From: Truepera sp. bin119
Lineage (GTDB): Bacteria > Deinococcota > Deinococci > Deinococcales > Trueperaceae
Direction: 5' to 3'
Length of the DNA stretch: 64,000 bases
Assembly: GCA_002239005.1 (NCBI GenBank)
Contig: MPNL01000011.1
Span: 1-64,000, forward strand
Positions 3,973 through 27,491 of the stretch are shown here, piece by piece. Both the position numbers and the translations under genes were made by a program. The notes under the pieces are model-generated. The model saw nothing but the letters and a program-made list of their open reading frames with translations, did no database searches and was not told the DNA's origin. The first letter of the stretch is position 1. Each line of letters starts with the position of its first letter.

Positions 3973-3996
3973 GCAGCTAGCTACGCTACTCAGAGT

Positions 3997-4024
3997 CGGT
4001 GTGGGGGAACTCTCTCCCACACCG
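3997..4024 (+). terminator. Stem-loop after the binding-protein gene
   Basis: Perfect 9-bp inverted repeat CGGTGTGGG (3997-4005) and CCCACACCG (4016-4024). It extends inward by three more pairs, one of them G-T, to a tetraloop. It starts 24 nt after the stop. The downstream tract is only weakly T-rich, so termination is probable rather than certain. Confidence 0.6.
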
Positions 4025-4449
4025 CTCCCTTGTTCGCCCATAGGCTGCAATCGGTCCTGGATCCCAACCCGAGGAAGCCTTCAGTGATGGGGGCCTAGCC
4101 TCACAACGCAGTTACCAACTACGGATCCGATCCCGGAGAGCAAACGACCCCTCGCCACCGGGATGTCGATCTCTCCCGGTAGGCTTGGGGGGACGGGGTC
4201 ACCTTTAGCCCTCTGACCCGGAGTGGCCCGAGCGCAAACATGCCGCTATGGCCTATGATGGCTCTAGGTGGCGATTCGAAGATCCCTCGCATAAAGGGGT
4301 CTGGTCAGGCCGTTGGGGCCAAGGGTCGCCCGCAGAGGTCTGAACTGACCGGGTACTCCGGCTAGTGATCGGTCCTGGGAGAGGTCGACCCGCTTGCCAG
4401 TTACTCGCCTGGGTTAAGCTGCCCGGGGTCGTCGTCCCAGGGAGGTAGC
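4025..4449. other. Intergenic region before the GH36-like gene
   Basis: About 425 bases with no ORF, RNA gene or repeat I can support. It ends in the RBS GGAGGT (4441-4446), which selects the GTG start at 4450. Confidence 0.5.
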
Positions 4450-6489: not shown

Positions 6490-7326
6490 TCAACCGCTCG
6501 TCAGCCTGAGACCCTTGAACGCTTCGACCTGACCCGTGATAGCCCTCTCGGTCGGCAGGCGTTCGATGGAGGAGGCGCCGAAGAATCCGTTGATGCCGGG
6601 CATCTTCGCCAAGGCTGTGCCGACATTTCCAGGCTCATCGAACGGTCCACCGTGACAGATCACCAGGATGTCGCTGCGTACGCTGCGGCCCGCCTCAGCG
6701 ATGGTCATCACCCTGTCGATCGCCTCGTCCAGGGTCATGGCGACAGCCGCTCCGATACTCCCCGCAGTAGTCAGGCCGACGTGAGCGACAAGCTGATCGG
6801 CTCCGACCTCAGCCATGGCCTTGGCACTCGCCGCGTCGAAGACATATGGAGAGGTGAATAGATCGAGGTCGCGGGCGATCGCGATCGCTTCGACCTCCTT
6901 TTCATAGCCCATCTCGGTCGCTTCCAGGTTGGCGCGGAATTCGCCATCGATCAGGCCCACTGTTGGGAAATTCTGCACCCCGGAGAAACCGATCTCCTTG
7001 AGGCTCTTTAAGAAGACAGGCATCAGCCGAAACGGGTCTGTTCCACAGATCCCGGCCAGGACAGGAATATCGCCGACGACCGGGAGGACTTCCGCAGCCA
7101 TCTCCACAACGATGCCGTTCGCGTCGCCGTACGGCATCATACCGGCCAGCGAGCCGCGGCCAGCCATCCGGTAACGACCGGAATTATAGATGATGATCAG
7201 GTCGGCACCGCCCCGCTCCGCGAACTTGGCCGAGATGCCGGTCCCGGCTCCGCAGCCAACAATAGGTCTCCCCAGCCGCCACTGAGTGCGCAGCCGGCTT
7301 AAGATCTCCTGACGAGCGACCGCCAT
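6490..7326 (-). CDS. PEP-hydrolase-like TIM-barrel protein
   Basis: 278-aa protein of the phosphoenolpyruvate hydrolase-like / TIM-barrel signal protein family. Recognisable parts are an N-terminal RPIVGCGAGTGISAKFAE segment, ADLIIIYNSGRYRM, and late strands ending in VICHGGP and GFFGASSIERLP. In plants this domain is fused behind a UPF0261 domain in the tomato mosaic virus resistance protein Tm-1. Here the UPF0261 gene is immediately upstream with 30 nt between them, so the pair is probably one operon. The RBS GGGGGAGG precedes the ATG. The reaction is not established; the family name rests on similarity. Confidence 0.8.
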   Translation of the reverse strand: MAVARQEILSRLRTQWRLGRPIVGCGAGTGISAKFAERGGADLIIIYNSGRYRMAGRGSLAGMMPYGDANGIVVEMAAEVLPVVGDIPVLAGICGTDPFRLMPVFLKSLKEIGFSGVQNFPTVGLIDGEFRANLEATEMGYEKEVEAIAIARDLDLFTSPYVFDAASAKAMAEVGADQLVAHVGLTTAGSIGAAVAMTLDEAIDRVMTIAEAGRSVRSDILVICHGGPFDEPGNVGTALAKMPGINGFFGASSIERLPTERAITGQVEAFKGLRLTSG

Positions 7327-7356
7327 GACAGCACCTCCCCCACCGCCGAGTCCGGA

Positions 7357-8568
7357 TCAGGCGCCGAGCATCGCCAACAGCGTCTGCGCCACTCTCCCGG
7401 AAAAGGTCGGATCGTTGATATTGTCCTCCAGCTCGATAACCGGAATGTCCGGTCTGAGGTTGCTCCTGATGGCGTCGAAGCAGGCGCCATCGGCCCCTGG
7501 ATCCCAGAATGGCCCACCCTCACTGTCAAGCATAGAGACCCCTTTAAGCGGCAGGAGGATTGTGACAGGTGCCACAGCCTCGTTCACAGCCGCAGCGAGC
7601 ATCTCCCCTATCCTGATATTCTCTTCGACATTCGTGCGCAGCAGAGTGATATCAGGATTCCACCGGTAGAGGTTGCGGTTTCGGTACCTCTCGGGAACGG
7701 TCTCGATGCTGCCAAAGTTGGCCATGTCGACACAGCCCGGCACCACGACGGCAGGGATGCCGGCCCTCGAAGCGGCCAGACACCGGTCAGGCCCAGCATC
7801 GAACAGACCGCCACAGACGGTATCCGCGAGCTCGGTAGTCGTGATGTCCATCGATCCTGCGATGTAACCGTCGGCAATCAGGCTCTCCATAGTGCGTCCG
7901 CCCGTCCCGGTCGCGTGGAAAACCAGCACCTCGTACCCCCTGCCCTCGACGATGCCCTGCGCATGGTTGACGGCGGTGGTGGTGTTGCCGAACATAGAGG
8001 CCGTGACGAGCGGTCTCTCCTCAACGGCTCGAGGCTGTCCCGCGCTGACCATGCCAGTAATCGCTCCGGCGGCGTTGGCAAAGATAGTGCGACTGATCCG
8101 GTTGATCCCGGCGACATCTACGACCGACGGCATGAAGGTAATGTCCTTACTACCGGCGTAGGGACTCACGTTACCACCCCCGACGGTCGAGACCATCACC
8201 TTGGGCACCCCCACCGGCAGGGTACGCATCGCAGTTGTCACTACTGAGGTGCTACCCGTTCCGCCCATACCGATGATGCCGTCCAACTTACCCTCGTCAT
8301 ACAGGTCCCGCACGACCACAGCCAACCCGGCCGCCATGGTCTGCATAGCGTCATCCTTATGCTCACCGGAAGCTAGGTGGGCTAGGTCACTCCCGCCCGC
8401 CCTGGCAATCTCCTCTCGCTTGATATCCGGTTCAAAACCCGGTCTGCCCATGACCCCGACATCGACGACGAAGGCATTCACCTTCGCAGCTTCGATCCGT
8501 CCCTTGAGAAAGGTGAACTCCTCCCCTTTGGTGTCCAGAGCGCCCACAATGACAACCGTCTTAGCCAC
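7357..8568 (-). CDS. Tm-1-like ATP-binding protein, UPF0261 family
   Basis: 403-aa UPF0261/Tm-1-like protein. The N-terminus VVIVGALDTKGEEFTFL is the hallmark opening, followed by a GMGGTGST nucleotide-binding loop and FHATGTGGRTME in the second half. Plant Tm-1 carries this domain at its N-terminus and binds nucleotide. The bacterial cellular role is unknown. The start is GTG at 8568 with AGGAGG three nt upstream. It forms a pair with the downstream TIM-barrel gene, and the two domains may interact as they do in the plant fusion (inference). Confidence 0.82.
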   Translation of the reverse strand: MAKTVVIVGALDTKGEEFTFLKGRIEAAKVNAFVVDVGVMGRPGFEPDIKREEIARAGGSDLAHLASGEHKDDAMQTMAAGLAVVVRDLYDEGKLDGIIGMGGTGSTSVVTTAMRTLPVGVPKVMVSTVGGGNVSPYAGSKDITFMPSVVDVAGINRISRTIFANAAGAITGMVSAGQPRAVEERPLVTASMFGNTTTAVNHAQGIVEGRGYEVLVFHATGTGGRTMESLIADGYIAGSMDITTTELADTVCGGLFDAGPDRCLAASRAGIPAVVVPGCVDMANFGSIETVPERYRNRNLYRWNPDITLLRTNVEENIRIGEMLAAAVNEAVAPVTILLPLKGVSMLDSEGGPFWDPGADGACFDAIRSNLRPDIPVIELEDNINDPTFSGRVAQTLLAMLGA

Positions 8569-13766: not shown

Positions 13767-15482
13767 CTATTGCCCGGCCGATTCCCTTAGCTGCTTCGTC
13801 TCTTCCCGGTCAACTTCGAGGCCCCCCTTCCCCTCTCCCTTGAGAGCTACCCCATACACCTGTCGCGCCGCGTCGAGGGTCACGATGCCGTTCTGGACAT
13901 CGCGCAATACCTGTCCGGCGACCCGCTCGAGCGGGTCGCCGTAACCACCACCGCCGGGCAGGTGCAGGGTTACGGTCTCTTTGGGCATCAGCCAGAAGTC
14001 CTGCTTCGGATTGGGCTGCTCAGCGCCCTGGTGGAACTCCCCTTGCGCGCCAGTCTGACCGCCGAAAAGGCCGCGAGCCGGGTGTCGGATCCGCTCGCAC
14101 TTGGGGCTGATCAGGAAGGGGTCTTGGGAGTCTATGCGAAAGGTTACCGTTTGCCCGGCACCACCACGGTGCCTGCCGGCACCGGCAGAGTCGGGTCTTA
14201 ATTCCTTGGCCAGGAACACCAGGGGCGTACGGTCCTCTACAACCTCGACCGGCACCGCCTGTGAGCGAGCAGGGAAACCCATGGCCGAGATACCGTCCTT
14301 GGTCGGTCTAGCCCCCGTGCCACCGGTCCAGACTAGGTGGGAGGAGACCCATTCGCCGCGCCCGTCCTTCCCGTAGGGCTGAATGCTCCAGTCGGCGTCG
14401 TAGCCCTCGGCCAAGACCCGATCTGGCAGCGCCTCGGCGAGGGCACCGAAGATGGCGCTGGGGAGGAGCTGGCCGAGGCTGTGGCGGGCGGCCACCGGCG
14501 CCGGCGGCAGGGCGTTCAGAACACAGCCCGGCGGCGCAGTGACCGCGACAGGCCGGAAACTCCCCGCATTGTTGGGGAGCTCGGGCGCGAGCATCGCCAG
14601 AATCGCGAAGAGGCTGTAGGCGTAGGTGTAGTTGAGGACGACGTTGATGCCGTAGCGGCTCTGGGGGGAGGTGCCGTCGTAGCCGATCCACATCCCCCCG
14701 TCGGCGACGGTCACCTTCACCTTGATCTCGACAGGCTCGTCGAAGCCGTCAGCCACCAGACGGTGCCTGTAGACCCCCTCTGGGCACGCGGCGATCGCCT
14801 CACGGACACCCTGCTCCGACCGGGTCAATATCTGCTCCGCTAGGGGTTGGAGGCTTTCCAAGCGGAAATCTTCCATGAACCTGAGCAGTTCCCGACCCCC
14901 GACCTCATTGCCCGCCACCTGGGCGTGAAGGTCGCCGATAACCTCCCGGGGGCTGCGGACGTTAGCCTCGATAATCTCGAACAGATCCTCGTTAGGATGA
15001 CCCCGACGGAAAAGCTTGAGGATCGGGAGCCACAGGCCCTCCTCGAAGACATCCTTGGCTTCGGCCGACATCGGCCTCCCACTTATGTCGACGGCGTGAC
15101 AGGTATTGGCGAAGAAGGCGACCGGTTCCCCGTCACGAAAGACGGGGGTCATCACAGTCAGGTCGTTAAGGTGTCCGGAGGTCTTCCAAGGATCGTTGGT
15201 AATGAAGACGTCCCCGGGATCCATAGCCTCCTCCGGGATCTTCACAAGGAGCTGCCGAATGCATTGCGCCGTCGAGTTGATGTGCCCAGGCGTCCCGCGC
15301 ACGGCCTGGGCCAGCATCCGACCCTCGACATCGAAGACGGCTGCCGCGAGATCCTCAGCCTCGCTCACCACCGTCGAGAAGGAGGCACGAACGAGGGTGG
15401 CAGCCTGCTCGTTCACGACGGTGATCAGCCGGTTCCACAGCACCTCAAGCAGGATGGGGTCGATGGGTGCCTCTGTTGTCAT
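13767..15482 (-). CDS. hyuB: Hydantoinase B / 5-oxoprolinase subunit B-like protein
   Basis: 571-aa HyuB-family protein. With HyuA it forms an ATP-dependent ring-opening amidohydrolase (N-methylhydantoinase or 5-oxoprolinase type). Typical features are DPILLEVLWNRLITVVNEQAATLVRAS at residues 7-33, VFDVEGRMLAQ, DVFITNDPW and a C-terminal GGGGYGDPLERV. The start overlaps the hyuA stop by 4 nt, so translation is coupled. It is the last gene of the co-directional cluster that begins near 27.5 kb. The substrate could be a hydantoin, oxoproline or related lactam; family membership is clear, specificity is not. Confidence 0.88.
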   Translation of the reverse strand: MTTEAPIDPILLEVLWNRLITVVNEQAATLVRASFSTVVSEAEDLAAAVFDVEGRMLAQAVRGTPGHINSTAQCIRQLLVKIPEEAMDPGDVFITNDPWKTSGHLNDLTVMTPVFRDGEPVAFFANTCHAVDISGRPMSAEAKDVFEEGLWLPILKLFRRGHPNEDLFEIIEANVRSPREVIGDLHAQVAGNEVGGRELLRFMEDFRLESLQPLAEQILTRSEQGVREAIAACPEGVYRHRLVADGFDEPVEIKVKVTVADGGMWIGYDGTSPQSRYGINVVLNYTYAYSLFAILAMLAPELPNNAGSFRPVAVTAPPGCVLNALPPAPVAARHSLGQLLPSAIFGALAEALPDRVLAEGYDADWSIQPYGKDGRGEWVSSHLVWTGGTGARPTKDGISAMGFPARSQAVPVEVVEDRTPLVFLAKELRPDSAGAGRHRGGAGQTVTFRIDSQDPFLISPKCERIRHPARGLFGGQTGAQGEFHQGAEQPNPKQDFWLMPKETVTLHLPGGGGYGDPLERVAGQVLRDVQNGIVTLDAARQVYGVALKGEGKGGLEVDREETKQLRESAGQ

Positions 15483-17569
15483 GGGCTTACCTCTACAACG
15501 AGGTTGCCGATGTCATCGACGCTCACTACGGCGCCCGGCCCTACCACGGTTGTGCACTCCTCCTCTTCAACGATGGCCGGTCCCGCGACCTCCACTCCGA
15601 GTGGCAGAAGGTGACGGTCGAAGACCGGGGTCTCCCGATATGCCCCATACTCTGGGAAGAAGGCCTGCCGGTAGCCCTTCCGGGCGCCGGTCGATCTCAG
15701 CGTCGCCCTAGCACCCAGCGCCCGGATCTCGGGGGATGGAGCGGGACCCGAGGCCAGCAGCCGCCAACCGATGACCTCGAGACCTATATCGTCCAGACTC
15801 CGACCGTAGTTACGACGATAGGCTTCCTGAAAGTCGCTCGAAAGATCGGCGACGTGCTCGGGCTCCAGGCGGCCGTTGCGTACCGGCACATCCAACTGGT
15901 GCGACTGGCCAGAATAGCGGAGTTCGCAGCGCCGCTCGAAGCGCATCTCCCCAAGCCCCACACCTGAGTGCGTTAGGATCCCCCACCCCTCCTCCTCCAT
16001 CTCCCGGTGCAGCTCGTTGACCCGATCCCAGTCGACCCGAACTAACTCCTCTCGGTAGCTGCGGACGAAGTCGAACGAGAACGGGGCACATAGCAAACCG
16101 AAGGCCGAGGCCACGCCGGCTCCTGGCGGAACGACGATCGTGGTTATGCCCAGCAACTCTGCGACCCGGTAGGCATGGATCGGACCGGCCCCGCCGAAGG
16201 CGATCAGGGCGTAGGCCCGAGGATCGCGGCCGCGCTCGACCGCGTGGACCTTCGCGGCACTCGCCATCGCCTCATTGACCACCTGGTGCACACCCCAGGC
16301 GACCTCGCAAGTGGTCAGGCCGAGGGGTTGGGCCAGCGCCGCCTCGAGGACTTCGAAGGCAGCCTCTCTGTCAAGCTCAACCCGGCCACCCAGGAAAAAG
16401 CCGGGGTCCAGGTAGCCGAGGACGAGATCCGCGTCGGTGACCGTCGGGCGCCGTCCTCCCCGACCGTAGCTGGCCGGACCTGGATCGGCGCCGGCGCTGT
16501 CAGGGCCCACCTTGAGGAGCCCAAGGGTGTCGACCCGGGCGACGCTGCCGCCGCCCGCTCCGATCTCGATTAGGTCGATGGTCCGGGCGCGTATGGGCAG
16601 ACCGCTCCCCTGTTTGAAGCGATAGACTCGGGCCGCCTCGAAGTCTGGAGTCGTGAGCGGCGTGCCGCTGTCGATAATGCCTAGCTTCGCGGTGGTCCCC
16701 CCCATATCAAACGAGATCAGGTCGGGGCGCGCCGCCGCCCGGCCCAGATAGGCCGCGGCCAGAGCGCCGGCCGCCGGTCCCGACTCCAGAAGTCGGATCG
16801 GGAAGCGGCAGGCGGTCTCGACGGTACAGATCCCCCCACTGGACAGCATCAGATAGAGGTCCCCGGCGAACCCCATCCCCTCCAACCGAGTGGCCAGCCT
16901 TCGCAGGTACGCCTCGATCAGCTGCTGGACGTAGGCGTTGGCCACAGTGGTTGAGGTCCGCTCGTACTCCCGGATCTCTGGATTGACCTCACACGAGAGT
17001 GAAAGATGAACTCCGCCCAAACGGCATCTGAGCCAGTCGGCCACGATCCGCTCGTGATCGGGATAGAGGTAGCTGTGGAGGAAACAGATCGCAACGGCTT
17101 GGACCCGCTGCTCCTCAAGCTCGGCGGCGATCTCATCGATCTGCCGCCGCTCCGGGGAGGTCTCGACCTCCCCACCCTTCAACACCCGCTCCTTCACGCC
17201 GAAGCGCAGGTGGCGCGGCACCAGAGGCTCTGGCATCTCGAGGAACAGGTCACTGATATCGTAACGGCGCTCTCGAGCGATCTCGAGCGTATCACGAAAG
17301 CCGTAGGTGGTCAGCAGAGCCGTCTTGGCCCCGCTGCGCTCGATGATGGCGTTGGTGACCAGGGTGGTCCCGTGAATCACGTCTCGGACCTCGGAGGCTC
17401 GGACCCCGCTGCGCTTAAAGATATCCCGGACCGCGGTCTCCACCCCCGCTGACGGATCGTGGGTCGTGGTCAGGGTCTTGCCCACCCAGGCCCGACCGGA
17501 ATCTCCTAGCAAGATCACGTCGGTAAACGTACCGCCGATATCCACGCCCAGCCGGTAGGGTCGGTCCAC
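15479..17569 (-). CDS. hyuA: Hydantoinase A / 5-oxoprolinase subunit A-like protein
   Basis: HyuA-family ATPase subunit of about 696 aa. The N-terminal actin-like domain shows RLGVDIGGTFTDVILL, and later GTTLVTNAIIERSG, FDMGGTTAKLG and FGGAGPIHAYRVAE mark the hydantoinase A core. It is expected to phosphorylate or activate the lactam or hydantoin for hydrolysis with HyuB. I choose GTG at 17569, 10 nt after the upstream stop; a TTG at 17608 would overlap the upstream gene and has no spaced RBS. It is coupled to hyuB by a 4-nt overlap. Confidence 0.87.
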   Translation of the reverse strand: MDRPYRLGVDIGGTFTDVILLGDSGRAWVGKTLTTTHDPSAGVETAVRDIFKRSGVRASEVRDVIHGTTLVTNAIIERSGAKTALLTTYGFRDTLEIARERRYDISDLFLEMPEPLVPRHLRFGVKERVLKGGEVETSPERRQIDEIAAELEEQRVQAVAICFLHSYLYPDHERIVADWLRCRLGGVHLSLSCEVNPEIREYERTSTTVANAYVQQLIEAYLRRLATRLEGMGFAGDLYLMLSSGGICTVETACRFPIRLLESGPAAGALAAAYLGRAAARPDLISFDMGGTTAKLGIIDSGTPLTTPDFEAARVYRFKQGSGLPIRARTIDLIEIGAGGGSVARVDTLGLLKVGPDSAGADPGPASYGRGGRRPTVTDADLVLGYLDPGFFLGGRVELDREAAFEVLEAALAQPLGLTTCEVAWGVHQVVNEAMASAAKVHAVERGRDPRAYALIAFGGAGPIHAYRVAELLGITTIVVPPGAGVASAFGLLCAPFSFDFVRSYREELVRVDWDRVNELHREMEEEGWGILTHSGVGLGEMRFERRCELRYSGQSHQLDVPVRNGRLEPEHVADLSSDFQEAYRRNYGRSLDDIGLEVIGWRLLASGPAPSPEIRALGARATLRSTGARKGYRQAFFPEYGAYRETPVFDRHLLPLGVEVAGPAIVEEEECTTVVGPGAVVSVDDIGNLVVEVSP

Positions 17570-17579
17570 GCCTGTGCGC

Positions 17580-18578
17580 CTACGCGTCCCTTGTAATTTT
17601 CCTGACAACCCTTCCCATAGTCATGACCTGGGCTCCACCGTTGGGAAGAAAGGGCTGGCCGGGAACGGAGAGGATGATCATGTCGAAGGGCGCCCTCAAC
17701 TCCTCTACCGGCCGGCCCAGGGCATCGACGATGGTCATGAGCAGGGTCCCCTCGGTCACGCTGGCCATGAGCCGACAGGCCGACGCGTAGCGGATCAGTC
17801 CTCCATAGGTGTTCCGCAGCGGCTCGTAGTCGACCATCACCCACTCATCGGCGTATCGGGGTTGCCCGTCGAGCATGTCGTAGGCTCTCATGACGTTGAC
17901 GATGCCATCGTAGGTCGTCTTCACATCCCCCGTGTAGAACTCGGGGCGTCGATGGTTGGCACCGCCTAGCTCGATGGTGACGCAGGGCTTGCCCAGTTCG
18001 GCAGCGATGTTGGTGAAGCTGGCGATGCCGGCTCGGGCCCCGGCCCCCTTGGCAAGGAGTGGCCAGTCAGGCCCCATCGCCTGAGCGAGCCTGAGGTGCT
18101 GCTCACCATCATCCGGCACGATCAGGCGGGCCCCCACGTAGATATTTGCCCCGCCGCTGTGAAGGTCGAGCACCAAGTCGGCTTGCGGGAGGATGTCGGT
18201 GCAGACCCGATGGGCGATGCGCTGCGTGATCGAGCCATCGGGACTGCCCGGGAAGATCCGGTTCAGATCGTAATACCAGTCGTCCAGAGGATTGCCACGC
18301 TTGCGGTGCTCGTAAGCAGGGTAGTTCAGGGCCGTAATGCCGATGACCGTGCCGCGCAGAGCGCCCGGGTCGACGCGGTCGACGAGATCGAGCAGCGCGG
18401 AGTGCCCCTCGGGCTCATCCCCATGGGTGCCGCAGTTGAGCAGCAGGCAGGGACCCTCACCCCCCCCCTCAATGCGGATAGTCTGGATAGCGATGTCGCT
18501 CCCATCGATCCGCTTCGAAATCGGATAACTTTCAGCGGTCACCGACGCCTTCAGCTCGTTCCGCACAACCCCGTCCAT
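17580..18578 (-). CDS. M14-type succinylglutamate desuccinylase/aspartoacylase family protein (copy 1)
   Basis: 332-aa zinc-dependent deacylase of the AstE/AspA branch of M14. Zinc ligands are visible: H52 and E55 in GTHGDEPEG, and H140 in VLDLHSGG. DLNRIFPG near 104-111 is the substrate-binding signature, and VTIELGG supplies a likely catalytic Glu. Such enzymes remove acyl groups from amino acids. It starts one base after the amidohydrolase stop and lies just ahead of hyuA in the same cluster. A second family member lies at 25173-26213. Substrate unknown. Confidence 0.85.
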   Translation of the reverse strand: MDGVVRNELKASVTAESYPISKRIDGSDIAIQTIRIEGGGEGPCLLLNCGTHGDEPEGHSALLDLVDRVDPGALRGTVIGITALNYPAYEHRKRGNPLDDWYYDLNRIFPGSPDGSITQRIAHRVCTDILPQADLVLDLHSGGANIYVGARLIVPDDGEQHLRLAQAMGPDWPLLAKGAGARAGIASFTNIAAELGKPCVTIELGGANHRRPEFYTGDVKTTYDGIVNVMRAYDMLDGQPRYADEWVMVDYEPLRNTYGGLIRYASACRLMASVTEGTLLMTIVDALGRPVEELRAPFDMIILSVPGQPFLPNGGAQVMTMGRVVRKITRDA

Positions 18579-19745
18579 CTATTCCCTACCCCCTTCGCGC
18601 CGATAGGCTTCCCAGCCGTCTACGAACACCCGTTCACAGGCCGAGCGGGTGTCCAGGGGATGGCCGGAGAAGACAGCGATGTCGGCGTCTTTCCCGACCT
18701 CAAGACTCCCCATCCGATCGGATACCCCGAGCAGTTCCGCGGCCGTCAGGGTCAGACCCCGCAACGCGACATCCTCGGGCAGGCCTTCCCGAACAGCGAC
18801 CCCCGCCTGAACCGACAGCCACTGTGTCTCCGAGGCACCCGCGCACTGGAAGGCTAGGGTGACGCCGGCCTCGTGGAGCAGGGCGGCGTTCCGGGGCGTG
18901 GAGTGCTGGTACTCAAGCTTGCTCCGCGGGGCGGTGAAGGGTCCCAGCACGCACGGGGCCTGCGCCTCAGCGATCTCACGGGCCACCCGGTAGCCCTCAA
19001 CAGCGGTTTCGATCGTGAAGGTCAGGCTAAACTCCTCGGCGATGCGAATGGCGGTTAGGATGTCGTCGGCACGCAGGGCGTGGATGCGTGCAACGGTCTG
19101 CCCCGTCACCAATCGTGCCAGTTCCTCTAGGCCCAGGTCTCCGACTCCACCGCTGTCGGCGTACGCCCGAGCTGCACGCAGCGCCTTGCGGAGTAACATC
19201 ACGCTCCCCATCCGGGTCATGGGGGCCCCGCTGCTGAAGGTCACGGGGTTCTCACCCAGAGCCAGTGCCAGCTGCTCCGTGCCGGGCAAGGCCATCCGGT
19301 CGGGTCGGTCGGCCCACATCTTGGCGACGAAGCCGGTTCCACCAACGATATTGGCACTTCCAGGCTGCGTCCACGCAGCCGTGACACCCCCCGACAGAGC
19401 ATCGGAGAAGGCCCCGTCGAAGGGGTTGAAGCTGTCTACCCCGCGAACCTCGGGCGTGATCGGGCTCGACATCTCATTATGGTTCACGTTGCCCGCGACC
19501 GACGGTTCCCCCAACAGGCCGATATGGCTGTGGGCGTCGATTAGGCCCGGCATCACCACCTTTCCGCTGACGTCGACCCACTCGGCCTCCGCGGGGATCG
19601 TGACGCTCTCACCGACCGCCTGGATCTTGCCCTCGCCGATGAGAACAGTGCCTCCTTCAAAGGTGTCACCCGAGACGGTGATGACCCTCCCACCTACCAG
19701 GGCTAAGCAAGGGATTCTCTCCCGCGTCTTCTGGTTCATAGCCAT
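18579..19745 (-). CDS. Amidohydrolase family protein with altered metal site
   Basis: 388-aa amidohydrolase-superfamily protein of the imidazolonepropionase/prolidase-like branch (COG1228). The first metal motif is intact: H72-x-H74 in AHSHIG. The later ones look changed. The segment usually HAHRADDI reads H222-A-L224-RADDI, the usual IEH reads I245-E-T247, and the usual TDHP region reads QCAG (300-303). Two His and probably an Asp are therefore missing, and activity is doubtful. The start at 19745 is 8 nt after the creatininase stop with GAGGGG upstream; the longer frame to 19895 has no family residues. It is part of the minus-strand cluster. Confidence 0.78.
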   Translation of the reverse strand: MAMNQKTRERIPCLALVGGRVITVSGDTFEGGTVLIGEGKIQAVGESVTIPAEAEWVDVSGKVVMPGLIDAHSHIGLLGEPSVAGNVNHNEMSSPITPEVRGVDSFNPFDGAFSDALSGGVTAAWTQPGSANIVGGTGFVAKMWADRPDRMALPGTEQLALALGENPVTFSSGAPMTRMGSVMLLRKALRAARAYADSGGVGDLGLEELARLVTGQTVARIHALRADDILTAIRIAEEFSLTFTIETAVEGYRVAREIAEAQAPCVLGPFTAPRSKLEYQHSTPRNAALLHEAGVTLAFQCAGASETQWLSVQAGVAVREGLPEDVALRGLTLTAAELLGVSDRMGSLEVGKDADIAVFSGHPLDTRSACERVFVDGWEAYRREGGRE

Positions 19746-19752
19746 GATCGTA

Positions 19753-20547
19753 CTACCCCTCACCGAGAGTGTAGAGCGTTCCCAGGGTCCAGCCCGCATA
19801 ATCGTCAAGGAATGCCGCGATCTTCGACGACGCCGCATCCAGGAGCTGCTCGCCCTTCTGTGCGGTACCGAGTCTGGCAGCGCCGAACACGCCACTCGGA
19901 GAGAAGTCGGAGACGTGGTGGGCGATGTAGGCCGGCCGGGAGGCCAGAAAATCCATAGTAAAAAAGGGGGTTTTCCACTTCGGCATGTGAGTCACCGCCC
20001 TGTCCATCTGGACCTGGTCCGGGGCCTCAGCCAACATGGCCGACGTCTCGAACTCACCGGCATGGGCCATGCCGCCCATAGGAGACTCCCGGATCCTCCG
20101 GATGTCGTCCGGGATGAAGTGCCAGTAGTTGCCGGTTGCGGCGATGACACTGCCGTCGGTCGCGTCGCGCACATTGCGGGCTACCAGTTGGAGTGGTGAG
20201 AGATTATGACCGTGACCGTTCAGAAAGAAGAGCTTCTTAAAGCCGTGGCGGACGAAACAGAGGGCGATCTCCGAAAGGGTACGAACGAAAGTCTCCTGCT
20301 GCAGGCTCAGTGACCCAGGAAAGTCCATATGGTGATTCGAGCAGCCCGCCCAGAAGGCAGGGGTGACCAGGACGTTGGCGGTGGCCTTCTCTGCAGCCCG
20401 CCTGGCAACGGCTTCGGCCAGGACCGTGTCTGTCTTCAGCGACAGGTGTGGGCCATGCTGCTCGATGGCGGCGACCGGTATCACAATGACGCTACCATCC
20501 TTGTCGAGCAGCTCCACCTCGGGCGATGTGAGTCGTGCATACTCCAC
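19753..20547 (-). CDS. Creatininase family amidohydrolase
   Basis: 264-aa creatinine amidohydrolase-family protein, a metal-dependent cyclic or linear amide hydrolase. Conserved metal motifs are visible: IPVAAIEQHGPHLSLKTD near the N-terminus, FLNGHGHN in the middle and MAHAGEFETSAM later. The start is the GTG at 20547, preceded by GGGAGG with good spacing; the longer frame to 20655 overlaps the upstream gene and lacks family sequence. It lies between the oxidoreductase and the amidohydrolase. The true substrate is open, since this family also covers dehydratase and glycine-amide activities in other pathways. Confidence 0.85.
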   Translation of the reverse strand: MEYARLTSPEVELLDKDGSVIVIPVAAIEQHGPHLSLKTDTVLAEAVARRAAEKATANVLVTPAFWAGCSNHHMDFPGSLSLQQETFVRTLSEIALCFVRHGFKKLFFLNGHGHNLSPLQLVARNVRDATDGSVIAATGNYWHFIPDDIRRIRESPMGGMAHAGEFETSAMLAEAPDQVQMDRAVTHMPKWKTPFFTMDFLASRPAYIAHHVSDFSPSGVFGAARLGTAQKGEQLLDAASSKIAAFLDDYAGWTLGTLYTLGEG

Positions 20548-20572
20548 TCTGATTCCTCCCTCTGTTGACGGT

Positions 20573-21577
20573 CTAGCGCGCTGTAGGAACGGTTGTTCTC
20601 CCCTTGGCCGCCTCGAGCAGTGACACTGCAACGGCAACCGCCTCCACAGCCTCATCTGGACGGATCCTCAACTCGTCGGTCCCCTTTACCCCAGCCAGGA
20701 AGTTTTCAACCTCCTCCCGCAGAGCACCACCCAGCCGACCGTACATATCGGGCACGATGTGGGTGTCTGGCCTCCGAGCGCTCGTCCCGGAGTAGATCTC
20801 CAGACCCGAGTAGAGGCCGTCGATGAAAATCACCCCGTCAGTACCGACAACCTCCAGCTTCCAGTCGGAGGTGGGCATCGTGTCAGGCAGGATCCAGGCG
20901 TGTTCCATCAGTGCGAACTGACCGGAATCGAAGTGCAGATTTCCAACCAGAACATCATATACGCCTAGGTCCTTGAGTCGATTGGAGGCCGCGGCGGCGT
21001 ACACGGAGGTACAGGGACTGCCGATGAGCCATAGCGCGACATCGATATCATGAATCCCTACGAAGAAGACCGACTCAGTGCGGCCCTTGAGTCGGTAGGG
21101 GGAGGCGATCAGGTCGTTCCGACGGGCGTTGAGGTAGACCACCTCGCCGATCAGCCCCGAGTGGACTGCGTCGTGGGCCTGGACGTAGCGGGGATCGAAC
21201 CTCAGGGTGTGCCCCACCAACAGCTTCACCCCGGCCCGCTCGGCCGCCCGGACGATCGCCCTGGCCTCCTCCAGCGAGGTTGCGAGAGGCTTCTCGATCA
21301 GCAGGTGCACCCCCCCGGAAGCTAGTTTCTCAGCCGCCTCGCGGTGCAGGTGATCGGGCGTTGCGACAACGGCCGCATCGAGTTCTTCTAGCGCATCAAG
21401 AAGCTCGTCGACGGTGTTAAAAGCGGGGACCCGGTACGCTTCGCTTAAATCCCTGGCAACTTCGTCGTCGACATCGACCAGTGCGACCAGATCGGCCTCC
21501 TCAAGATCGGCGAGGATCCGAAGGTAGCGGCGTCCCATGTGGCCGCCCGCCCCTACTACAGCTGTTCGAACTCTCAT
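20573..21577 (-). CDS. Gfo/Idh/MocA family oxidoreductase
   Basis: 334-aa NAD(P)-dependent oxidoreductase: Rossmann motif VVGAGGHMG at the N-terminus, IEKPLATS (the EKP motif) near 95, and HDIDVALW with a catalytic His. It is likely to oxidise a sugar, cyclitol or hydroxy acid. The ATG at 21577 has GGGGGG just upstream; the frame to 21622 is discarded. It sits between the permeases and the creatininase in the cluster. A second, more distant family member lies at 59.9 kb in the lipid A operon. Confidence 0.85.
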   Translation of the reverse strand: MRVRTAVVGAGGHMGRRYLRILADLEEADLVALVDVDDEVARDLSEAYRVPAFNTVDELLDALEELDAAVVATPDHLHREAAEKLASGGVHLLIEKPLATSLEEARAIVRAAERAGVKLLVGHTLRFDPRYVQAHDAVHSGLIGEVVYLNARRNDLIASPYRLKGRTESVFFVGIHDIDVALWLIGSPCTSVYAAAASNRLKDLGVYDVLVGNLHFDSGQFALMEHAWILPDTMPTSDWKLEVVGTDGVIFIDGLYSGLEIYSGTSARRPDTHIVPDMYGRLGGALREEVENFLAGVKGTDELRIRPDEAVEAVAVAVSLLEAAKGRTTVPTAR

Positions 21578-21674
21578 CTCCCCCCCTACAGCAGGTGCCA
21601 AAGCAGCACCGCAGTTTCCCACTCGAGTGCCTGGATAGCCAGAATTACCCCGAGGTCGCTCACTATCCGCTGCC

Positions 21675-22511
21675 CTATCGGCGGGGATTGAGCCTGTCCT
21701 GGAGGCTATCGCCCAACAGGTTGGCGCTCAGCACCGTGATCAGCAGGGCGAGGCCGGGCCAAGTCACCAACCACGGCGTGACCAGCATGTAGTTGCGTCC
21801 ATCGGAGAGCATAGCTCCCCAAGAGGGGTCGGGGGGCTGGATACCGACGCCGATGAAGCTGAGTCCGGCCTCGGCATAGACGATCGTCGAGATCTGCAAC
21901 GGCACCATCACCGCGAACAGTGGAAAGACGTTGGGTAGAAGGTGCCTGAAGATGATGCGCAGGTCCCTAGCCCCCAGCGCCCGCGGAGCGATGACGTATT
22001 CCTCGTGCTTTAGAGCGATGGTTCCCCCTCGCACGATCTTTGCGAAGTGAGGCCAGCCCACGAAGGTGAACACGCCGATGAGGCTGGCTGGACCCGGTTC
22101 CGTCGCAGCCACCAGCAGCAGGGCCAGGATGACCATGGGGAACGCCATAATCGCCTCGGCGACACGCATGATGACCGCATCGAGCCGGCCCTCGAAATAG
22201 CCGCTGAGGAGGCCGATGACCATACCCACACTGCCAGCAAGCAGGACCGAACTCCAGGCGATGATCAGCGTCGCCCTCCCACCATGCATGAGCCGAGCGA
22301 GGGTGTCCCGCGCAAGCTGATCGGTGCCTAGGGGAAATCGCCAACTCGAGCCGTCGAAGGGCACAGGCTTGAGCAAGAAGGCCCCAGAATGAATCTTGAG
22401 CGGATCCATGGCGAAGATGAGCGGGACGAGAAACACCACCAGTGTGAGGCCAAAGACGCCTACCAGGCCAACTAGTAGCGGCAGGCTGAAGGGGTGACGG
22501 GAGCTAGCCAT
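21675..22511 (-). CDS. ABC transporter permease, DppC-like
   Basis: 278-aa inner-membrane permease of the peptide/nickel class. It has an N-terminal helix (about 10-34), a periplasmic stretch with FPLGTDQLARDTLARLMHG, and further helices. The EAA loop is visible around ALKHEEYVIAPRALGARDLRIIFRHLLPN, and the C-terminus has GLSFIGVGIQPPDPSWG. The ATG at 22511 overlaps the end of the DppB-like gene by 8 nt. Cognate ATPase genes (DppD/DppF) are not in this cluster. Confidence 0.88.
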   Translation of the reverse strand: MASSRHPFSLPLLVGLVGVFGLTLVVFLVPLIFAMDPLKIHSGAFLLKPVPFDGSSWRFPLGTDQLARDTLARLMHGGRATLIIAWSSVLLAGSVGMVIGLLSGYFEGRLDAVIMRVAEAIMAFPMVILALLLVAATEPGPASLIGVFTFVGWPHFAKIVRGGTIALKHEEYVIAPRALGARDLRIIFRHLLPNVFPLFAVMVPLQISTIVYAEAGLSFIGVGIQPPDPSWGAMLSDGRNYMLVTPWLVTWPGLALLITVLSANLLGDSLQDRLNPRR

Positions 22512-23421
22512 AGCGGATCCGGGGATCGAGCAACCCATAGGAGAGGTCGATGAAGAAATTGGTCACTAGGAAGAAGGCGGAGAGGATCAGGACCGACCCT
22601 TCGACCAGCGGATAGTCCCGAGTCCGCACCGCCTCTACCGTCAGGCTCCCCAGACCGGGCCAGGCGAATACGGTCTCAATAATCACGGTGCCACCCAGCA
22701 GCCAGCCGAGGCGAAGGCCGAGATCGGTGATCAGAGGGATGAGGGTAACGCGGAAGGCGTGCTTGGTCACCACCACCACCTCCGAAAGCCCCTTGCTCCG
22801 CGCAGTCCGCACGAAATCCGAATCGAGCACCTCCACAATCCCCCCGCGCACAAACCTCACCACCCGGGCAAGGAAGGGAATTCCTAGACTTACAGCGGGA
22901 AGGATCAGGTGGCTGGGGCCACCCGCCCCGAAAGCCGGGAACCAGCGCAGTCGTATCGAGAAGAACATAATCAGCAGAATGGCCAGCCAGAAGTTGGCGA
23001 CCGCCTGGACGGAGTAGGTGACCATCCTGATCACCGTGTCGAGGAACGATCCAGGGACGGCAGCGGATAGGAGGCCGAGCGGGACCCCCAGCAGGACGAC
23101 GCCCACCATGGTGGTCAGCGCCAGTGTTACGGTCGGCAGGATCCTCCTGGAGATTCGGTCCATGACGGGCCGTCCATCGAATAGCGACTCACCCAGGTCG
23201 GCGGTGAACAGGCCCTGCAGGAACTCTGCGTACTGAACGTAGAGCGGCCTGTCGAGGCCCATCAACTCCCTCAGGCTCTGGTATTGGTGCGGTGACCCCA
23301 CGTCGCCGAGAAAAATCTGGGCAGGGTCCCCGGGCGTCAACCTGATCGCCAGGAAGACCATGGTCGCCATGATCAGTAGCGTCACCAGCATCTGAAGGAA
23401 ACGGTTCAGGATAAAGGGCAT
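22504..23421 (-). CDS. ABC transporter permease, DppB-like
   Basis: 305-aa inner-membrane permease. The classical start MPFILNRFLQMLVTLLI is at the ATG at 23421, followed by RLTPGDPAQIFLGD. The EAA loop includes FVRTARSKGLSEVVVVTKHAFR. The frame to 23466 is rejected because those bases form the intercistronic hairpin after the binding-protein gene. There is no clear RBS. It partners the DppC-like permease downstream and the binding protein upstream. Confidence 0.88.
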   Translation of the reverse strand: MPFILNRFLQMLVTLLIMATMVFLAIRLTPGDPAQIFLGDVGSPHQYQSLRELMGLDRPLYVQYAEFLQGLFTADLGESLFDGRPVMDRISRRILPTVTLALTTMVGVVLLGVPLGLLSAAVPGSFLDTVIRMVTYSVQAVANFWLAILLIMFFSIRLRWFPAFGAGGPSHLILPAVSLGIPFLARVVRFVRGGIVEVLDSDFVRTARSKGLSEVVVVTKHAFRVTLIPLITDLGLRLGWLLGGTVIIETVFAWPGLGSLTVEAVRTRDYPLVEGSVLILSAFFLVTNFFIDLSYGLLDPRIRYG

Positions 23422-23445
23422 CGAAAGAGTATTCAGAGAAGGGGT

Positions 23446-23473
23446 GGAGGGTGTGGGCCAGCCCACACCCTCC
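23446..23473 (-). terminator. Intercistronic stem-loop after the binding-protein gene
   Basis: Perfect 13-bp inverted repeat, 23446-23458 against 23461-23473 (GGAGGGTGTGGGC and its complement), located between the binding-protein stop and the permease start. Such hairpins commonly let the binding protein be made in excess of the permeases by partial termination or 3'-end protection. Confidence 0.65.
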
Positions 23474-23481
23474 CTGGTACG

Positions 23482-25038
23482 TCAGTTCCCCAGCGTGGCC
23501 TGGCGCAGGTCCCACCACATCTGGGAGGATCTGGGGGTGAAACCCTGGACATCGCTGTGGACAGCGTAGAGGTCGAAAGGCTGCACTACAGGCAGGCGAG
23601 TGGGGTTCTCCCACAGGATCTCCTGGAGTCGCTGGTAAGCATCGATCCGGTCTTGCGGATCGGTCGAGAAGCGCCCCTTCTCGACGAGCGAAACCACCTC
23701 CGGTCCGAACTCATAGGTGTCGGTGGCCTCGCGGTTGCGGGCGTTGGGGTGGAAGTTCGCCCACACGTAGAAGTCGGGATCGAGGGTGTAGGTCGCCCAG
23801 CCGTTGTAGTACATGTCGAAGTTGCGACCGTTAATGATGGGGCCCCCGACCCCCCAGTCTGCGGCCACCCGGATGTTCAGTTTGATACCCACGTCGGCCA
23901 ACTGCTGGGTGATGGCCACCACTGCGTCGGCGATCTGCAGCTCACCACCCGCCGTGTACCAGATCTCCGCCTCGAAGCCGTCGGGGTAACCGGCCTCCGC
24001 GAGGAGGAAACGGGCCTGGTCGGGATCGTAGACCTTCGCCGGGAGATTGGGGTGCGCCGCGAACACGTTGGGCGAGTAGATGCTAGAGGGCATCTCCGCC
24101 TGCCCCTGGAAGATATCGCGAATGAGCGCCTCGCGGTCGATGGCCAAGTCGATCGCCTGGAGGACCCGGGGATCACCCCCCACCGGTGGCCGGGCGTCAC
24201 CACCCAGGGAGATGTGCTGCGTGATCGGACTCGGCACTCGGGCGATGTCGACATCCGGCGTCGCGTTGAGAACCGAGACTAGCTGGACCGGGACGCCGAA
24301 GGCGATGTGAATGTCACCACTCAGGACGCCCGCGATCCGGGTCGCATCCTCAATGATCGGACGGAACACCACCCTCTCCACTCCCGGGGCATCACCCCAG
24401 AAGTCCGGGTTCGCCTCGACGACCAACTCCTCACCGGGCGACCAACTGACGAAGCGGAACGGCCCGGTCCCGTTGGGCTGGGTGGTGTTCACCTCAGGGT
24501 CGAAGTTCGGGGGCAACATCGCCCCGAGCGTCAGGTGGGCCATCAGCGGCCCGAACGGCCGCGCAGTCACGATCCGAACCTGGAAGTCGTCGATGATCTG
24601 GACTTCGGTGATGCCCTCCCACAGGAAGCCCTGGGCGGTCCGTTGATTCGGGTCGAGTAGCTTCTCGATAGTGAACTTCACCGACTCGGCAGTGAATGGC
24701 GTCCCATCGTGGAAGGCCACACCCTGGCGCAGGTCAAGCTCCAAGGTAAGGTCGTCGATCTGGCGCCAAGCGGTCGCCAGTCCGGGCTGGAAGCTCCCGT
24801 CGCTGCCGCGCATAATCAGCGGGTCGAACAGCAGGACTCGAGCGATGCCGAGCGTCGACCGACGGGTGCTCGAGGTGACGTCGAGCGTGGCGAAGCCCTC
24901 GTGGTGAGCGACAACCAACGTTCCGCTGCCCTGCGACATCCCAGTACTGATGAGCAAGAATGGAACGAGGAGCGCCACCACTAGGGTGGCACAGGCGAGA
25001 AGCCTGCTGCAGTGAGCGCATCCTGTCTGGTTTCTCAT
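23482..25038 (-). CDS. ABC transporter family 5 solute-binding protein (DppA-like)
   Basis: 518-aa extracellular binding protein. The signal peptide has a hydrophobic stretch (about 13-33) after MRNQTGCAHCSR and probable cleavage near residue 35-38. Family features include FDPLIMRGSDGSFQPGLATAWRQ, LRQGVAFHDGTPFTAESVKFTIEKLLDP and a C-terminal WENPTRLPVVQPFDLYAV. It feeds the two permeases downstream. Ligand unknown; the enzymes around it suggest a peptide-like or cyclic amide compound. Confidence 0.87.
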   Translation of the reverse strand: MRNQTGCAHCSRLLACATLVVALLVPFLLISTGMSQGSGTLVVAHHEGFATLDVTSSTRRSTLGIARVLLFDPLIMRGSDGSFQPGLATAWRQIDDLTLELDLRQGVAFHDGTPFTAESVKFTIEKLLDPNQRTAQGFLWEGITEVQIIDDFQVRIVTARPFGPLMAHLTLGAMLPPNFDPEVNTTQPNGTGPFRFVSWSPGEELVVEANPDFWGDAPGVERVVFRPIIEDATRIAGVLSGDIHIAFGVPVQLVSVLNATPDVDIARVPSPITQHISLGGDARPPVGGDPRVLQAIDLAIDREALIRDIFQGQAEMPSSIYSPNVFAAHPNLPAKVYDPDQARFLLAEAGYPDGFEAEIWYTAGGELQIADAVVAITQQLADVGIKLNIRVAADWGVGGPIINGRNFDMYYNGWATYTLDPDFYVWANFHPNARNREATDTYEFGPEVVSLVEKGRFSTDPQDRIDAYQRLQEILWENPTRLPVVQPFDLYAVHSDVQGFTPRSSQMWWDLRQATLGN

Positions 25039-25172
25039 AAGCGTATCCGGTCCCCTTTCGACTACCAGAACTCCATGTTGCGAACCTGTTTGGTTAAAGA
25101 GCTTGTCGTACCTGGCGTTTCGTCTCTCACCTCCTCACAGTTCGTTGTCACTAAGCTGCGGGCAGGGCTGGC

Positions 25173-26213
25173 TCACGGCGGCGTCAACTGGCCCCCGGCA
25201 GTCGCTCCCGAAAGAGCGTCCTCCAGGTCAATGAAATTTGCCACTAGGAGGACGGGTTCGCCCGCCCAGACGATAGGTTTGGTCCGGATGCCGGTCACGA
25301 GTCCTGAGTGGGGAGCAACCACCTCCTGGTTCACTCGACCGTAGACGTCACAGATGGTGCCGATGACTTGGCCCTCCTCCACGAGCTCCCCAGTCCTGAC
25401 AAGCGGTCTCGAGATTCCCCCCTCAGTTGCGTAGACGTAGGTCTCAGTGTCAATGCATCTGCGATTCTCGGGAAGCCCTTCGATCACACCGGGTATCATA
25501 TCCAGGTAGCACATCACGTTGCGGATGCCGGTTCTAAGTACGGTGACATCCTCCTCATCGGCGCGCCCCTGTCCGGTAGTTTCGACCACGGCCACTTGCA
25601 CTCCTTGCTCGATACAGCAGGCAGAAAACTTCGACCAAGGTGACACCCGCCACAGCGTCTCCATGGGGAACATCTCGGCCAAGGCCAGCGACTTCCTTCC
25701 GAGCTCACCGGAGGCCCCGACGAAACCGGTGATCCAGTGCGAGGTCCCCCTGGTGCCCCCGGAGTGAAAATCGATCACGGCATCGACGTGAGGAATGATC
25801 TCGCTAACGACCGTGTAGGCGAGGCGCTCGGTGACCGTACCATCCGCTCTTCCAGGGAAGGTGCGCGCCAGATTCTTCTTGTCTACCGGCGTCTCCCTGA
25901 CACCGGAGACGTCCAGAGACGACTTGCCCGCGAAGGCTAGAACGTTCAGCACCGGGATTCCTATCAGGGTTCCAGCCAGCGCCTGGGGATCGATCTCGGC
26001 CACAATGTCGAGGATGGCCAAGGTCCCCTCTGGCTCGTCACCGTGGGTCCCCGAATTCAGGCACAGGACCGGCCCCGGGCGAGCCCCGTGGAGGATCACC
26101 ATGGGGATGCCTAGGGGCGCCCCGTCTGGCCGCCGGGCAAAGGGAAGCTCTCCGTCGAGGCGCCGACCGGGGGGAACCTCCAGGGATCCGAGGTGGAAGG
26201 GTTCGCGTGCCAC
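25173..26213 (-). CDS. M14-type succinylglutamate desuccinylase/aspartoacylase family protein (copy 2)
   Basis: 346-aa zinc deacylase related to copy 1 at 17580-18578 but clearly diverged. Zinc ligands are H57 and E60 in GTHGDEPEG and H150 in VIDFHSGG; NLARTFPG near 114-121 is the substrate motif. The C-terminal beta domain ends in VVAPHSGLVTGI, like the lipoyl/hammerhead tail of N-alpha-acetyl-diaminobutyrate deacetylases. The GTG start has AGGAGG seven nt upstream and follows the PLP enzyme stop by 12 nt. Confidence 0.86.
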   Translation of the reverse strand: MAREPFHLGSLEVPPGRRLDGELPFARRPDGAPLGIPMVILHGARPGPVLCLNSGTHGDEPEGTLAILDIVAEIDPQALAGTLIGIPVLNVLAFAGKSSLDVSGVRETPVDKKNLARTFPGRADGTVTERLAYTVVSEIIPHVDAVIDFHSGGTRGTSHWITGFVGASGELGRKSLALAEMFPMETLWRVSPWSKFSACCIEQGVQVAVVETTGQGRADEEDVTVLRTGIRNVMCYLDMIPGVIEGLPENRRCIDTETYVYATEGGISRPLVRTGELVEEGQVIGTICDVYGRVNQEVVAPHSGLVTGIRTKPIVWAGEPVLLVANFIDLEDALSGATAGGQLTPP

Positions 26214-26225
26214 GCTATAACCTCC

Positions 26226-27491
26226 TCAGGCAGCCAAGTCGTCCAGAAGCCGGTTCAGCTGCTCGATATCCGGATCGATCCGGGGGACCCTCGCCACTCC
26301 GCTCTCGAGGTGGCTGAAGGTCAGGCTCCAGCGTAGGCCGGTCGCCGTCCCGACACAAACCACGGTCTCCTCTTCATCCCACTCGCCCCCCGCTGCATCC
26401 TTGAGAGCAGCAGCCACCGAAACCGCCGCCGAGGGGGCGAGACAGAGCCCGTCACGCCCCAGCCTTACGAGGGCTTCGGTGATCTCTCCATCCTCAACGG
26501 CGATAGCCCCCCCCTTCGATTCCCGGACGGCCCAGATGCCGTGATCTCCCGACTGGGTGTGCCGAATCGAGATGGCCAGGGAGTCCACGCTAGGCACCTC
26601 CGGCGCATGCTGGAGGTCCTCTTCGACAGCCCGGACGATCGAGGCGCCACCGGCTTGGCAGGCGTACATGCGGGGTGCACGGTCGATAGCTCCTAACTCG
26701 AGTAGCTCCCGAAAACCCTTCCAAACTCCGTAGATAGAGTCCCCGCCTCCAACGGGAACGAACACCCGGTCCGGAGCTGAACCGAGCTGCTCGACGATTT
26801 CGAAAGCGATAGTCTTGTACCCCTCGAGGCCGAACGGGTTAGCGAAGGGGCGAGGAAAGTTGCGACTGGACACATACCAACCGTGGTTTCTGACCAGTTC
26901 GTCCACCAGTGCCAGGGCCGCACCATCGTAACTGGACAGCACCACCGGTTGGACACCGCGGAGCATCAACTCCGTCAGGGTCCGGGTCTCTACGTAGGGC
27001 GGGGTGAATACGACAGACATCATACCCGCGACCTGGGCATAGGTGCCGAGCGAAACCCCCTGGTTCCCCGATGAGGAGACAGTGGCGCGGGTGAAACCCA
27101 AGTGCAGGCCCATGCTTATGGCCACGGCGTTCAACCGGTCTTTGAAAGAGCCCGTTGGGTTGCTGGCCTCGTGTTTGACAAAGGCACGGGCAACACCCAG
27201 AATCTCCGTAATACCCTGCATGGGAACCAGGGGGGTATCCCCCTCTCCGAGGGTGACTTGGCGGTCACCTACCGGCGGGAGCAGAGGGGACCAGCGCCAC
27301 AGCGACGGTGGACGGGCCGCCCGCGCCGCCGTCATGATCCCCTGCCCATCGAGGGATCCCAGTTCGTAGCGGACCTCAAGGGAGCTAACCTCACCCTTCT
27401 CGGCACAGCACGGACAGCCGTACAGCAATGGCTGGAAATCGAAGGTTTCATTGCAACCTTTACACTCCAGCCAGGAAACTACAGCCTCCAT
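26226..27491 (-). CDS. Threonine-synthase-like PLP-dependent enzyme
   Basis: 421-aa fold-type II PLP enzyme. An N-terminal zinc-ribbon-like region carries C10-x2-C13 and C26/C28/C29. The PLP lysine is K117 in NPTGSFKDR, and the phosphate loop is SSSGNQGVS. Overall it resembles threonine synthase or threonine/diaminopropionate lyases. Its position first in a catabolic cluster argues for a deaminase or lyase role rather than threonine biosynthesis (inference). The ATG at 27491 is selected because the Cys motif begins just after it and GAGAGGAG lies upstream; the frame to 27596 runs through the promoter repeats. Confidence 0.8.
   Translation of the reverse strand: MEAVVSWLECKGCNETFDFQPLLYGCPCCAEKGEVSSLEVRYELGSLDGQGIMTAARAARPPSLWRWSPLLPPVGDRQVTLGEGDTPLVPMQGITEILGVARAFVKHEASNPTGSFKDRLNAVAISMGLHLGFTRATVSSSGNQGVSLGTYAQVAGMMSVVFTPPYVETRTLTELMLRGVQPVVLSSYDGAALALVDELVRNHGWYVSSRNFPRPFANPFGLEGYKTIAFEIVEQLGSAPDRVFVPVGGGDSIYGVWKGFRELLELGAIDRAPRMYACQAGGASIVRAVEEDLQHAPEVPSVDSLAISIRHTQSGDHGIWAVRESKGGAIAVEDGEITEALVRLGRDGLCLAPSAAVSVAAALKDAAGGEWDEEETVVCVGTATGLRWSLTFSHLESGVARVPRIDPDIEQLNRLLDDLAA

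Follow-up and report, generated by a model that had tools for sequence, protein, structure and literature searches.

Degradation of ectoine through DoeA, DoeB, EutB and EutC pairs an M14 deacylase with a fold-type-II pyridoxal phosphate (PLP) enzyme, and the caprolactamase CapAB, N-methylhydantoinase and 5-oxoprolinase are two-subunit, ATP-dependent lactamases. Genes resembling both occur together in an eleven-gene cluster of Truepera sp. bin119 (Deinococcota, Trueperaceae; assembly GCA_002239005.1), at positions 13767-27491 of the first 64 000 nucleotides (nt) of contig MPNL01000011.1, the stretch of DNA analysed here and called the window below. To our knowledge, the described ectoine pathway includes no HyuAB, creatininase-family or Dpp genes. 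A literature search for the gene combination found no description of it, and a first-pass annotation, made from the DNA letters alone, knew of no described pathway with this set. We consider it reasonably probable that the cluster is a single catabolic transcription unit for importing and degrading a small peptide-like compound with an amide or lactam group, and that its amidohydrolase is non-catalytic or re-purposed.

Eleven co-directional genes form an operon

Open reading frame (ORF) calls and Pfam and NCBIfam searches found eleven intact ORFs, all on the minus strand, to which the coordinates of the cluster genes given below refer. In the order of transcription they encode a PLP enzyme, an M14 deacylase (M14b), a solute-binding protein (SBP), the permeases DppB and DppC, a Gfo/Idh oxidoreductase, a creatininase-family protein, an amidohydrolase, a second M14 deacylase (M14a), HyuA and HyuB. 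Between them, the two databases placed every gene in the family named by the first-pass annotation, DppB being identified with NCBIfam; the annotation had also described the mostly short gaps and overlaps correctly. The host genome (G000) comprises 3.2 Mb and is 97% complete; it was compared with relatives that include 38 of its own family, and its order is represented by five families among the relatives sampled.

With the best start codons, 12 nt separate the PLP and M14b genes, 134 nt M14b and SBP, and 15 nt SBP and DppB; DppB and DppC overlap by about 8 nt, and 97 nt lie between DppC and Gfo/Idh. From Gfo/Idh through HyuB, all neighbours overlap or are 0-25 nt apart: the spacing is 25 nt between Gfo/Idh and the creatininase-family gene, 7 nt between the latter and the amidohydrolase gene, and 0 nt before M14a, which overlaps HyuA (by 29 nt with a TTG start), while HyuA and HyuB overlap by 4 nt. 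All eleven genes display a coding pattern of GC content at the third and second codon positions (GC3 0.71-0.83, GC2 0.43-0.53). Scans of the cluster for promoters and terminators returned chance level only. The eleven genes constitute a real operon, and we infer that they are co-transcribed.

HyuA and HyuB retain the residues of ATP-dependent lactamases

HyuA (15479-17608; Hydantoinase_A plus N and C domains) and HyuB (13767-15482; Hydantoinase_B, 491 bits) belong to the ATP-dependent hydantoinase/oxoprolinase/caprolactamase family. In CapAB, mutation of the Asp-His-Asp-His metal site inactivates the enzyme (PMC8453981, the source also of the motif roles used here). Residues D44, H104, D107 and H129 of HyuB align with D41, H99, D102 and H124 of the CapB metal site, which is therefore intact, and HyuA has both DxGGT phosphate motifs (GVDIGGTFTD and SFDMGGTTA). 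Indeed, by alignment HyuAB keeps every residue at which mutation leaves CapAB with little or no activity (PMC8453981). Judged from sequence, HyuAB thus has the complete catalytic residue set of ATP-dependent lactamases, sharing phosphate loops and metal site with CapAB, N-methylhydantoinase and 5-oxoprolinase. In contrast, the vicinal disulfide and Tyr136 of the CapAB caprolactam pocket have no aligned counterpart in the window proteins. The CapA and CapB models gave 505 and 222 bits versus a cut-off of 1000 (NCBIfam), and a caprolactamase identity was rejected because these scores fall far under the equivalog cut-off. Elsewhere in the host genome, three tandem HyuA-HyuB pairs occupy about 15 kb of one contig (L172, G000:C39:1-19900).

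The best PDB match of HyuA is N-methylhydantoinase (7hk5, 393 bits). Together with the creatininase-family protein (19753-20547; Creatininase, 240 bits; probable GTG start at 20547 with a Shine-Dalgarno sequence), this match speaks for degradation of creatinine or N-methylhydantoin by creatininase and an ATP-dependent N-methylhydantoinase. The creatininase-family protein retains the motifs of its family, yet it reads NGHGHN where Pseudomonas creatininase has NGHYEN, so that the Glu is absent, and its score with the creatininase equivalog is 124 bits versus a cut-off of 235. Moreover, creatinase, creatinine deaminase and N-carbamoylsarcosine amidase are absent among the eleven genes, and we regard creatinine degradation as very improbable.

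A peptide-type importer that lacks its ATPases

The operon encodes the SBP and both permeases of a Dpp/Opp importer without the two ATPases. The SBP is of the peptide-type family 5 (23482-25038; SBP_bac_5, 278 bits), with PDB 5u4o as best match (245 bits) and GsiB (1uqw) as the next. DppB (22504-23466) scores 328 bits with NCBIfam Opp2B (cut-off 350), and DppC (21675-22511; BPD_transp_1, 101 bits) has an ATG at 22511 in an ORF open from 22538. Pfam and NCBIfam found no ATPase gene among the eleven genes, in keeping with the DppABC-type set described by the first-pass annotation, and an oligopeptide-type ATPase gene is located elsewhere in the host genome (L039:18666-19682).

A second family-5 SBP, of 630 residues (2080-3972), is encoded on the plus strand of the window between GH127-like and GH36/alpha-galactosidase-like genes recognized by eye (15-6342), an arrangement suggesting that peptide-type SBPs here also serve sugars. 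Between this group and the operon, the minus strand carries adjacent genes for PEP_hydrolase-like (PF09370) and UPF0261 (Tm-1-like) proteins (6490-8568).

The M14 and PLP enzymes are probably not those of ectoine degradation

M14a (17580-18578; AstE_AspA_cat, 105 bits) and M14b (25173-26213; 75 bits) are AstE/AspA-type, DoeB-like deacylases with 34% identity to each other. The motifs of M14a are intact (H52, E55, N106, R107, E203 and HSGG); M14b keeps H57 and E60 of the first Zn-site motif and HSGG, and has Ala in place of N116 of the Asn-Arg pair. The first gene of the operon (26226-27491; PALP, 196 bits) encodes a threonine-synthase-like PLP enzyme of fold type II with an N-terminal Cys-rich segment and a retained SFKDR lysine motif. 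Its 132 bits with TIGR00260 (ThrC) are under the cut-off of 167.1, and the host's own ThrC, at 237.6 bits above that cut-off, is encoded at G000:C2 (C2:24184). A biosynthetic threonine synthase was rejected on these two grounds, and the presence of the housekeeping ThrC elsewhere leaves the PLP gene of the operon free for catabolism.

Degradation of ectoine or a close analogue would cast the M14 enzymes as DoeB and the PLP enzyme as an EutB-like lyase. DoeB is the best-scoring model for both M14 proteins, and DoeB structures are among the top PDB matches of M14a. However, the scores (117 bits, and 121 bits for M14b) are far under the DoeB cut-off of 402.7, and the PLP enzyme reaches about 40 bits versus an EutB cut-off of 413. 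By Pfam and NCBIfam, a DoeA-type M24 gene and an EutC/ornithine cyclodeaminase (OCD) gene are absent among the eleven genes, as the first-pass annotation had noted in calling the likeness partial; such genes do occur in another cluster of the host genome, on contig C58, where they too score below cut-off. The ectoine hypothesis is largely refuted and retains hardly any probability. Taken as labels for the whole cluster, ectoine, creatinine, caprolactam and threonine metabolism all fail the score or motif tests.

Gfo/Idh and creatininase-family genes as a pair

The Gfo/Idh/MocA oxidoreductase (20573-21577; Pfam GFO_IDH_MocA) keeps Glu-Lys (95-96) and H176. In relatives, its gene is adjacent to a creatininase-family gene in L173, and an aldehyde dehydrogenase gene lies between the two in L167. 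Both pairs adjoin carbohydrate-type SBP_bac_1 transporters, which would suit the breakdown of an N-acylated aminocyclitol or amino sugar, with the pair as IolG/IolN-like ring openers and M14 or HyuAB removing the N-acyl or lactam part. An IolN model match (78 bits, NCBIfam) and inositol dehydrogenase 4hkt as the best PDB match of Gfo/Idh point the same way. Yet the window transporter is of peptide type rather than sugar type, and the scores are far under the IolN (245) and IolG cut-offs, which makes an aminocyclitol substrate very unlikely.

The amidohydrolase has a degenerate active site

The amidohydrolase gene (18579-19745; Amidohydro_1) is a full-length ORF of 388 residues with a confidently predicted fold (pLDDT 87.5). 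It matches TM0814 (PDB 3ooq) with 265 bits by sequence and, by fold, with a TM-score of 0.90 at 40% identity. In spite of this likeness, the window protein is without five residues that are near-invariant in 91 relatives (an alignment of 92 rows, one being the window protein itself). Lys160, Lys168, His247 and Asp302 are present in 91/91 relatives and His224 in 90/91; the window protein carries K160A, K168V, H224L, H247T and D302A. Altogether it keeps 47 of 52 near-invariant positions and loses five, whereas the median relative loses none. In the model, barrel strands 219-223 and 243-247 have the His224 and His247 sites at their ends, and the Asp302 site is just past strand 297-299; we take these three to be the classical M38 metal and catalytic positions (the histidines of beta-5 and beta-6 and the aspartate of beta-8). 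As far as sequence can tell, the protein probably still folds but has given up hydrolysis by the M38 mechanism. We take it for a probable non-catalytic or re-purposed homologue and a possible pseudoenzyme, decay and re-purposing both being compatible with the data.

TM0814-type genes adjoin peptide transporters in two Clostridia loci (L087 and L114, each with SBP-DppB-DppC) and on one Qipengyuania plasmid, which agrees with a peptide-like substrate. No other cluster enzymes were found in position around the nearest 80 GTDB amidohydrolase relatives listed, a sample in which distant members may be missed; apart from the two Clostridia loci, stray creatininase (L075) and PLP (L089) matches were the exceptions. 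Among 39 same-family genomes, no convincing full-length relative of the amidohydrolase was detected.

Modules recur while the whole does not

In the same family, SBP-DppB-DppC genes adjoin AstE-type M14 genes (L030-L036), HyuA-HyuB genes (L171, L204, L205 and others) or creatininase-family genes (L183-L196, L202); the order in L171 is HyuA-HyuB-SBP-DppB-DppC. DppB or DppC lay within about 5 kb of 13/20 creatininase-family genes versus 4/20 control regions (one-sided Fisher test, P = 0.005; the value is indicative, the 20 loci being the better-scoring matches and the controls being picked by position). Likewise, 9 of 17 HyuA loci contained DppB or DppC (windows up to 19 kb).

Two loci combine more of the parts. 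L042 (G016) reads HyuA-HyuB-SDR-M24-SBP-DppB-DppC-M14-HyuA-HyuB, with SDR and M24 named by eye, and about 25 kb of G019:C10 (79-104 kb) contain M14 genes, HyuAB, Dpp cassettes and, in addition, a creatininase-family gene in another order. Both bring M14, HyuAB and SBP-DppBC together, but differ from the window in gene order and orientation, in identity (29-45%), in their multiple transporters and in a set without Gfo or PLP genes. The host genome itself has a second co-directional cluster (L249, G000:C58:3000-22900), which at 10-23 kb of C58 encodes M38, M20 deacylase, creatininase-family, SBP-DppB-DppC, M24, isochorismatase-type amidase, OCD, ThrC-like PLP and M24 proteins. It shares with the window a creatininase-family gene (42% identity over 165 residues), SBP-DppB-DppC, a ThrC-like PLP gene (29%) and several amide hydrolases on one strand; M20, two M24, OCD and isochorismatase-type genes stand in place of M14, HyuAB and Gfo/Idh. 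The operon is thus a new combination of known parts, from a family that builds many such modular clusters.

Queries of the 39 same-family genomes with the amidohydrolase, creatininase, HyuA, PLP, SBP and Gfo families gave best identities of 40-44% for creatininase, 35% for PLP, 36% for Gfo and 54% for HyuA, and the best match of M14a among 60 relatives was 37% identical. The family search reported its closest creatininase-family relative (G004:C20:140688-141455) with one internal TAG, yet an ORF of 258 residues is open there. Plasmid relatives of M14a, the amidohydrolase and the PLP enzyme include AstE-plus-Opp neighbourhoods in Cytobacillus, without HyuAB or creatininase genes. On one such plasmid, of Cytobacillus oceanisediminis (L021, NZ_CP062791.1), four M14/AstE-type genes, two Opp cassettes and an M20 gene stand in one row, an AstE-plus-Opp association outside Deinococcota.

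Such a distribution would also be expected if the cluster were a mosaic of separate modules (PLP-M14b-Dpp, Gfo-creatininase and M14a-HyuAB) that share an amide-scavenging theme and lie side by side with different substrates. Relatives carry each module alone or otherwise combined and the whole in none, the nearest relatives share little and uneven identity with the window proteins (50-54% for HyuA, mostly 31-40% for the rest), and the amidohydrolase is decaying or re-purposed. On the other hand, the overlaps and near-zero gaps from the creatininase-family gene through HyuB argue for coupled translation of that block, and no other genes interrupt the set of eleven. We judge a mosaic somewhat unlikely.

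Proposed function

In the single catabolic unit that we favour, SBP-DppB-DppC would import a small peptide-like compound that contains an amide or lactam, borrowing an ATPase encoded elsewhere. HyuA-HyuB would open a cyclic amide or imide in the cell at the expense of ATP, and the products, which would resemble N-acyl amino acids, would then lose acyl or amide-linked groups to the two AstE-type M14 enzymes. The Gfo/Idh-creatininase pair probably oxidizes a ring hydroxyl or amine and then hydrolyses the oxidized ring, and the PLP enzyme would act last, eliminating ammonia or another beta-group. Each kind of step has support from the families involved; the direction of the reactions, their sequence and a substrate common to all are what we infer.

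This proposal draws on the tight co-directional layout, the HyuAB residues, the recurrence of modules beside Dpp cassettes and the second cluster of the host genome. Several observations weigh against it. The amidohydrolase has lost key residues, and the two largest spacings (134 nt before SBP and 97 nt before Gfo/Idh) interrupt the otherwise close packing. The carbohydrate-type transporters beside the Gfo-creatininase pairs of L173 and L167 suggest a chemistry unlike that of the other modules. Finally, the eleven-gene set and order was found nowhere else in the 60 relatives, the 39 same-family genomes and the nearest 80 amidohydrolase relatives listed. Because the order is conserved in no genome examined but the modules are, the one-pathway idea is weakened without being refuted.

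The first-pass annotation had gone further in assigning amide, lactam or acyl-amino bonds to every family as targets and in suggesting one substrate for them all. The former does not hold, given the missing metal and catalytic residues of the amidohydrolase, the creatininase-like protein without the creatininase Glu, and the carbohydrate-type company of Gfo and creatininase genes in relatives. As to the latter, operon layout, a peptide-type importer with amide and lactam hydrolases, intact HyuAB residues and recurring families agree with an amide cluster, but a single substrate and a fixed step order would go beyond these findings. A serial, so far undescribed pathway for one natural compound containing a cyclic amide is rather doubtful; it would run from oxidation by Gfo/Idh and ring cleavage by the creatininase-family enzyme through ATP-dependent opening of a lactam and two deacylations by M14 enzymes to a PLP lyase, and would give the metal-site-less M38 protein a new non-hydrolytic role.

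Many HyuAB, AstE-type and creatininase-family genes of Deinococcota are orphans, and the locus offers a concrete, testable case for them. Its degenerate amidohydrolase serves as a caution and may be a new pseudoenzyme. The locus also shows clusters of this kind to be built of exchangeable modules grouped around Dpp cassettes without ATPases, so that naming every gene after its family claims more than is known.

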